Below are positions 41,186 to 42,214 of a DNA stretch of 64,000 nucleotides, one piece after another (the first letter of the stretch is position 1; every line of letters starts with the position of its first letter). Under the pieces are notes generated by a model. That model searched no databases and was not told the DNA's origin. It saw only the letters and a list, made by a program, of their open reading frames with translations. A program made the translations under genes and the position numbers. The DNA is from an uncultured Clostridia bacterium. GTDB lineage: Bacteria > Bacillota > Clostridia > Lachnospirales > Anaerotignaceae. The stretch is from NCBI GenBank assembly GCA_944383885.1, contig CALWRF010000020.1, positions 1 through 64,000 on the forward strand, in the 5' to 3' direction.

Positions 41186-41416
41186 ATGAAAGAGTTATTG
41201 GAAGTTATTGCAAAAAATCTTGTTGACCACCCGGAAGATGTGGTAGTTACAGAGGTTCAGGGTGAAAAATCACTTATTCTTGAACTAAAGGTAGCTCCTG
41301 ATGATATGGGTAAAGTAATTGGTAAGCAGGGAAGAATTGCAAAAGCCATCCGAACGGTTGTTAAGGCGGCTGCTGTCCATGAGGATAAGCATATTGTAGT
41401 AGAAATAGTACAATAA
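41186..41416 (+). CDS. khpA: KH-domain RNA-binding protein KhpA
   Basis: This 76-residue protein is a single type-II KH domain with the GxxG loop in DDMGKVIGKQGRIAKAIRTVVKAAA. KhpA, usually with KhpB, binds many small RNAs and mRNAs and affects cell elongation and division. ATG 41186 follows CGGGAGGA; the open frame back to 41156 overlaps rpsP and is not used. It is the last gene before a long structured intergenic region. Confidence 0.93.
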   Translation: MKELLEVIAKNLVDHPEDVVVTEVQGEKSLILELKVAPDDMGKVIGKQGRIAKAIRTVVKAAAVHEDKHIVVEIVQ

Positions 41417-41449
41417 AGAGCGCATACATCAACTGTTTAAATAAAAGCC

Positions 41450-41680
41450 CCGGTTTTAATGGCTGGCGCCATAAGAAAACATAAATACACTGTAAGGTAT
41501 GCAAATCAGCCTTTCAGGTGTTTTTAATGAAATGCTTCTTTGGCGCGTTCCATCGGTGTTTGGTTTAAGAAGATTATAAAGCCAATAATTTTGGTTTATT
41601 AAATCAAGCCGCCTTAAATCGCGGCTTTTATTAATAATAATGTTAAATCGTGTGCGAGCTTTAAGGCTCGCATTTTTATA
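41450..41680 (+). ncRNA. Candidate structured RNA between khpA and rimM
   Basis: The 288 bases between khpA and rimM hold a row of paired elements. P1: 41453-41457 with 41476-41480 and ATGGC/GCCAT inside. P2: 41487-41497 with 41510-41521 (one bulge, one mismatch), then TTTTT. P3: CTTCTT 41535-41540 with AAGAAG 41567-41572. P4: AAGCCA 41579-41584 with TGGTTT 41592-41597. P5: AAGCCGC/GCGGCTT (41606-41627). P6: TGCGAGC/GCTCGCA (41653-41672), then TTTTT. P1's GCGCC (41466-41470) can also pair with GGCGC (41542-41546). P2, P5 and P6 resemble terminators. It matches no family I recognise; a leader controlling rimM-trmD or tandem terminators are the main options. Confidence 0.45.
41653..41680 (+). 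terminator. Terminator-like hairpin just upstream of rimM
   Basis: TGCGAGC (41653-41659) pairs with GCTCGCA (41666-41672), followed by TTTTTAT, only about 12 bases before the rimM ribosome binding site. No promoter is evident between it and rimM, so expression of rimM would require read-through. Confidence 0.6.
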
Positions 41681-41704
41681 TATTTATATTTAGGAGGTAT
41701 TTAA

Positions 41705-42214
41705 GTGGGTTTTTTCTGTATAGGAAAAATTACATCAACACACGGCATACGCGGTACTGTAAAAGTATTCCCAACTACGGATGATGTAAAGAGATTTGAA
41801 CTTCTGAAAGAAGTTATATTTGATTTAAACGGAAATAAGCAGACTTTTAATGTAGGCAAAGTTGCTTACCAGAAAAACATGGTGCTCCTTACAGTAAAAG
41901 AAATAGATGATATAAATACAGCTGAAAAATTCAGAGGAGCCAGCATACTGATACCTGATGATAAAGCGCTGCCGCTTGAAGAAGACGAATACTATGCCCG
42001 GGACCTTTACGATATGGAAGTTTATACAACTGACGGAGTGTATTTAGGCAAAATAGATGATATATATTTTACGGCGTCTAACGACGTGTATGCTGTTAAA
42101 CGAGATGAAAATACCAAAAATGACATACTTATACCTGCCATAAAAGACTGTATTATTGACGTAAATGTTAAAGAAAATAAAATGACAGTTAAGCTTTTAG
42201 AAGGAATGATGTAA
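41705..42214 (+). CDS. rimM: Ribosome maturation factor RimM
   Basis: This 169-residue protein helps assemble the 30S head around uS19. It has the RimM N-terminal domain (FCIGKITSTHGIRGTVKVFPTTDD) and a C-terminal PRC-barrel (about 95-165, YYARDLYDMEVYTTDGVYLGKIDDI and DILIPAIKDCIIDVNVKENKMTVKLLEG). GTG at 41705 follows TAGGAGGT. It is next to trmD, the invariant order. Confidence 0.95.
   Translation: MGFFCIGKITSTHGIRGTVKVFPTTDDVKRFELLKEVIFDLNGNKQTFNVGKVAYQKNMVLLTVKEIDDINTAEKFRGASILIPDDKALPLEEDEYYARDLYDMEVYTTDGVYLGKIDDIYFTASNDVYAVKRDENTKNDILIPAIKDCIIDVNVKENKMTVKLLEGMM

Follow-up and report, generated by a model that had tools for sequence, protein, structure and literature searches.

A dispersed two-hairpin repeat interrupts a predicted intrinsic terminator between khpA and rimM in an uncultured Clostridia bacterium

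Insertion sequences of the IS1397 type, which are autonomous and encode their own transposase, target REP sequences, where they enter the palindrome loop and generate a short duplication. Non-autonomous IS200/IS605 elements of the PATE type have a hairpin near each end, contain no open reading frame and leave no clear target duplication. REP sequences and the GTAG- and CGTC-tagged palindromic repeats are small dispersed hairpins, often found as dimers and largely intergenic (PMC3733652, PMC8266576); REP-like dimers have also been reported inside longer palindromes (PMC3733652), and the CGTC-tagged kind, which has no known transposase, is composed of units of 20-40 nt with stems of 8-9 bp (PMC3733652, PMC8266576). 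The BOX, RUP and SPRITE repeats of Streptococcus pneumoniae are structured, dispersed and less than about 200 bp in size; SPRITE consists of one long terminator-like hairpin found at gene ends, and no empty site could be shown for it (PMC3049150). Group IIC introns use a terminator stem-loop in their choice of site, inserting beside the stem (PMC7923331).

The window analysed here is a 64,000 nt stretch of DNA from an uncultured Clostridia bacterium, in which the gap of interest separates two genes on the forward strand (Table 1). We take these to be khpA, presumably encoding a KH protein, and rimM, and the wider gene order, ffh-rpsP-khpA-rimM-trmD, is likewise named from knowledge of the family. 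The original prediction described the gap as a row of six paired elements, three of them terminator-like. The stems and T-runs are indeed real: the gap folds at -77.4 kcal/mol, against -61.4 +/- 3.9 kcal/mol for dinucleotide shuffles (z -4.1), all 200 of which it beats, and T-runs are found at about 41521-41525, after 41627 and after 41673. However, they belong to two unrelated layers, native terminators and an inserted repeat, rather than to one array. Very probably, the native gap contains two intrinsic terminators 3' of khpA, the first of which has taken up a short, non-autonomous interspersed repeat in its loop.

Table 1. Features in and around the khpA-rimM gap, in positions of the window
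Feature	Position	Strand	Remarks
khpA	41186-41416	+	ATG at 41186 assumed as start
Gap, khpA stop to rimM GTG start	41417-41704		288 nt
T1 left arm, AATAAAAGCCCCGGTTTTA	41440-41458	+	same arm in uninterrupted terminators of G001, G003 and G004; pairs with right arm in predicted fold
TTA left of insert	41456-41458	+	possible 3-nt target duplication with 41614-41616; comparison of empty and filled sites here and at argG-argH
Dispersed two-hairpin repeat	41459-41613	+	155 nt; each end placed to within about 3 nt; missing from congener gaps
H1	41459-41553	+	ATGG/CCAT base, small internal loop, variable stem (GGCGCC here), ATAAGAAAA core, inner hairpin then T5 at 41521-41525
H2, GTGTTTGGTTTAA / TTAAATCAAGCCGC	41554-41613	+	both sides change across genera
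Alternative local hairpin AAGCCGC..GCGGCTT	41606-41627	+	repeat end plus T1 right arm; found by terminator scan
T1 right arm and T-run, TTAAATCGCGGCTTTTATT	41614-41632	+	congener comparison, fold
T2 and T-run	41652-41678	+	directly before rimM ribosome-binding site; stem kept with paired changes in congeners
rimM ribosome-binding site AGGAGG	41692-41697		
rimM	41705-42214	+	GTG start

The native arrangement is seen in the congeners. In G001 and G003, the khpA-rimM gap is only 135-136 nt long and contains two intrinsic terminators and no insert, T1 reading AATAAAAGCCCCGGTTTTTAAATCGAGGCTTTTATT and T2 TGCGGGC..GCCCGCATTTTT; a third congener, G004, has a nearly identical pair. T1 of the window is broken after CCGGTTTTA by 155 of the gap's 288 nt, that is, above half of it, and picks up again at TTAAATCGCGGCTTTTATT. 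DNA matches from G001 and G003 are contiguous and restricted to the two ends of the gap, the middle of which matches several other places in its own genome. A terminator scan of 2.5 kb returned two hairpins (41606-41627 and 41652-41673) where 1.9 would be expected by chance, hence the reality of the two terminators rests on their conservation in the congeners. On that comparison, T1 and T2 are predicted intrinsic terminators, each a GC-rich stem followed by a T-run and conserved with paired changes. Terminators separate khpA from rimM, as originally claimed, and two hairpins do pass the scan, but the T-run at 41521, counted as a third, lies inside H1 of the inserted repeat. The first hairpin found by the scan is an alternative pairing that depends on a single base of the T1 right arm, C here and A in G001, G003 and G004; the C creates a 7-bp hairpin with the repeat end, predicted at -10.7 against -6.1 kcal/mol. 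This substitution may have restored a compact terminator, although as a single change it is only suggestive.

Empty sites were found in G001 at three loci, khpA-rimM, argG-argH and L035, each being a plain terminator, and the khpA-rimM site is empty in G003 and G004 too. At argG-argH and L035, the genome studied here has a terminator plus the repeat where G001 has the bare terminator hairpin. The mobility of the repeat is thus deduced from sites present or absent between different species.

The repeat is matched by its covariance model at 41459-41612 (E 8.6e-22). The long-range pairing of GCGCC (41466-41470) with GGCGC (41542-41546), which had been noticed earlier, is genuine but forms the base of H1 instead of joining separate native elements. 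The pairs of H1 are conserved with both sides changing, and its inner hairpin resembles an intrinsic terminator in many copies of other genera. In H2 the outer stem varies, and most copies have a CTTAAGAAA/TTTTCTTAAG core. Outer stems are replaced between genera with their pairing kept (GTTCCCC/GGGGAAC, GTGCGG/CCGCCAC and GTTTGAC/GTCAAAC), unlike the AAGAAAA/TTTTCTT core, which is nearly invariant among copies. There were 12 double-change cells, against 3.6, in a first alignment and 17, against 3.7, in a second, with none of 500 shuffles as high in either case, these controls leaving the relatedness of the copies in place. As a plain MAFFT alignment across genera shifts the base of H1 by one column, cross-genus covariation was counted on H2 and the H1 core only.

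Copies range from 93 to 173 nt, the unit being one or two hairpins with the conserved core. The short copies L034-L036 have no clear H2, and in the solo hairpins L123, L254 (878-980), L261 and L266 the left arm of H1 is fused to the right arm of H2, apparently through recombination between the two similar cores. These two arms are roughly inverted relative to one another in copies of G076 and G028, and not clearly so in those of G063. Other sequences are also found in or beside the element: a second repeat, starting AACCTATCCGTAAATTATCTGCGCACAT, has inserted within copies L105 and L107 of G028, and the end of another insertion sequence, GATAGTGTCTACACAAGGTGAATGG, which we take to be IS5-like, is present inside copies L109, L113/L146 and L258. 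At L241, a cobalamin riboswitch (1259-1446, 99.7 bits) adjoins a weak copy of the repeat.

At least seven dispersed copies are present in the genome itself, copy numbers being lower bounds derived from searches. A covariance model of these copies reached a second genus (G076 and G028), in which DNA searches gave about 40 and 26 matches, respectively, partial ones counted. A second model (R2), built from 20 sequences of three genera, detected relatives in 18 of 392 order-level genomes, in several genera of one family only, and a class-level search of 391 genomes gave no matches outside that family. Two carriers correspond to public records, one being Lachnospiraceae bacterium B68 (CAJTKM01) and the other an uncultured Clostridia MAG (CAMQRG01), and these were the only two records in the genome collection with the exact end pattern, which was absent from the viral contigs; plasmids and phages searched with a G076 copy gave no match. 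The repeat is therefore short, non-coding and present in dispersed copies with both occupied and empty sites, as MITE/REP-like interspersed repeats are.

Copies sit inside host terminators far more often than expected by chance. In a set of 29 copies, the left flank pairs with the right flank of the same copy at -17.3 kcal/mol, against -11.3 +/- 0.66 kcal/mol when flanks are re-paired between copies, a difference equalled in none of 10000 permutations. Among 51 copies, the flanks of 24 form strict terminators, against 4.1 expected on re-pairing (maximum 12 in 5000), and the T-run is on the same side in the nested copies. Flanks vary in sequence from one copy to the next, which assigns the outer stem to the host site rather than to the repeat; when the gap is folded, the outer T1 stem is predicted to close around the insert. 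Nesting is not a rule: roughly half of the copies do not pass the strict test, and in some an outer stem is clearly absent.

This distribution makes it plausible, and we tentatively propose, that small hairpin-ended elements integrate into the loops of intrinsic terminators, these loops being recognised as a structure by an enzyme that reads the AAGAAAA/TTTTCTT core. The repeat would be mobilised in trans by this enzyme, which would recognise its hairpins, and would be joined at TTA/TTT in the exposed loop, the host stem then closing around it as a three-way junction. Such sites would constitute a safe harbour: because each end of the repeat is folded up on itself, closure of the host stem remains possible, hence termination probably survives and the insertion would be near neutral. 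Alternatively, the enrichment could reflect survival only, with insertions occurring widely and those in terminators being the least harmful. Some copies do lie outside terminators, and repeats are known to be tolerated in intergenic 3' regions (PMC3049150). However, the strict test is passed by 24 of 51 copies, against 0.23% of positions picked at random in those loci, a baseline that pools intergenic and other positions; this represents an approximately 200-fold excess, and it is the loop itself that has been struck, not merely the 3' region. We consider survival alone possible but somewhat doubtful, and infer targeting of terminators by an enzyme.

How the repeat moves is a narrower question, on which the junctions bear. 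These read TTTA/repeat/TTA and fit a 3-nt duplication or IS200/IS605-like joining equally well; TTA flanks the repeat on both sides at argG-argH and khpA-rimM, and can also be read as the element's own end. If the repeat were a non-autonomous relative of IS200/IS605, H1 would be its left and H2 its right end hairpin, and a Y1 transposase would move it by way of single-stranded DNA. This would account for the presence of two imperfect hairpins, one at each end, that have a core in common, and for junctions in which TTTA precedes an element ending in CTTA, as expected of insertion beside a short target with no duplication; IS200-type genes are also present in the genome itself. This origin nevertheless seems rather unlikely, given that the ends of the resident IS200-type elements differ from those of the repeat and that a 3-bp TTA duplication explains the junctions just as well. 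Y1 transposases as such were rejected as the mobiliser, there being no association: 8 of the 18 carriers, several of them 97-99% complete, have no match to PF01797, and the Y1-rich genomes G061, G016 and G029 lack the repeat. Searches of IS200-type loci and of partial matches found neither a mobilising enzyme nor an autonomous copy. The idea that the partial matches are halves of a larger parent element was also rejected, these being truncated copies or fused solo hairpins.

The strong covariation and the frequent inner terminator-like hairpin could instead suggest that the repeat is a functional RNA family, such as a module strengthening terminators or stabilising 3' ends, which has spread and been selected at gene ends. 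A crude open reading frame scan places many copies shortly 3' of a gene on the same strand, and some sites are common to G076 and G028. However, presence is patchy within a genus, many copies are degraded, fused or interrupted by insertion sequences, and no fixed gene association was seen. Selfish REP-like repeats are structured too, and we regard a selected function as unlikely.

The native terminators bear on the expression of the genes downstream. Most family members with a readable gap have a terminator-like hairpin and its T-run a short distance 5' of rimM, such that the khpA-rimM junction of the family usually carries one and the splitting of the operon predates the insertion. The family gaps (L195-L224) mostly contain one such hairpin near the rimM start and offer hardly any space for a promoter, hence partial read-through may be a family-wide arrangement; in the window, as originally stated, no good promoter was seen 3' of the last terminator. 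Expression of rimM-trmD by read-through, also part of the original prediction, is consequently plausible, but not by way of the inserted part. As elsewhere in the family, these genes would be reached either by leakage through the native terminators or from an unseen promoter, and the sequence fits equally a read-through that is constant, one that is regulated, or a promoter within the gap.

It is very improbable that the entire gap is one dedicated cis-regulatory RNA, either an attenuator or a ribosomal protein leader, governing read-through into rimM-trmD on sensing KhpA or a ribosomal protein: the stable fold, the terminators just 5' of rimM in most family members read and a weak L20_leader match (41600-41685), the best in Rfam but sub-threshold at 29.9 bits against a cut-off of 58.7, could be cited for it, yet the 155-nt insert is missing from the same gap in congeners and recurs at unrelated loci such as argG-argH, and Rfam gives no match at its cut-off. 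At both curated (gathering) and permissive thresholds, Rfam returned nothing relevant for the window or the other copies, in line with the initial failure to recognise a riboswitch or ribosomal leader; no result suggests that KhpA or a ribosomal protein is the ligand, and the literature covered gave no precedent for khpA/rimM. Covariance analysis had been suggested as a check on the putative six-part array, but the covariation found belongs to the repeat at unrelated loci and not to a khpA-rimM leader. The gap is very probably two ordinary terminators, the first of them split by a dispersed two-hairpin repeat, and a riboswitch-like regulatory array is rejected. For annotation, this means that a gap in these genomes can look complex and structured, and be mistaken for a new riboswitch, when it consists of a plain terminator and a repeat.

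The literature on repeats inserted in terminators yielded only partial precedents and, within its partial coverage, no description of this family. Like the REP, GTAG- and CGTC-tagged sequences, it is a small dispersed hairpin repeat; unlike REP and CGTC repeats, its copies are 93-173 nt long, comprise two different tandem hairpins with an AAGAAAA/TTTTCTT core and are nested in intrinsic terminators. No GTAG tag was seen at the repeat ends and no associated RAYT gene emerged, PF01797 showing no association, which separates it from REP; the CCGTC that lies between H1 and H2 no more than resembles the CGTC tag, and the text describing CGTC repeats does not mention Firmicutes. Judged by their description, BOX, RUP and SPRITE are similarly small, structured and dispersed, but in contrast to SPRITE it is here the host terminator that surrounds the repeat. 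IS1397 shares the insertion into a palindrome loop, but is autonomous, with its own transposase, and the target here is a terminator; PATE-type elements, likewise hairpin-ended and without an open reading frame, differ in that this repeat has neither matching IS ends nor an association with a Y1 transposase. Group IIC introns likewise involve a terminator, but are catalytic RNAs with a reverse transcriptase, and no copy of the repeat gave a group II intron match in Rfam. The family is thus set apart from the closest published kinds by its size, two-hairpin plan and core, taxonomic range and terminator nesting, and on these features we count it as a REP/MITE-like variant not previously described in the literature covered. 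If terminator loops are its real target, this would be a genome-friendly way of inserting that resembles the strategy of group IIC introns, except that it takes place within the hairpin, and the enzyme responsible would be worth finding.
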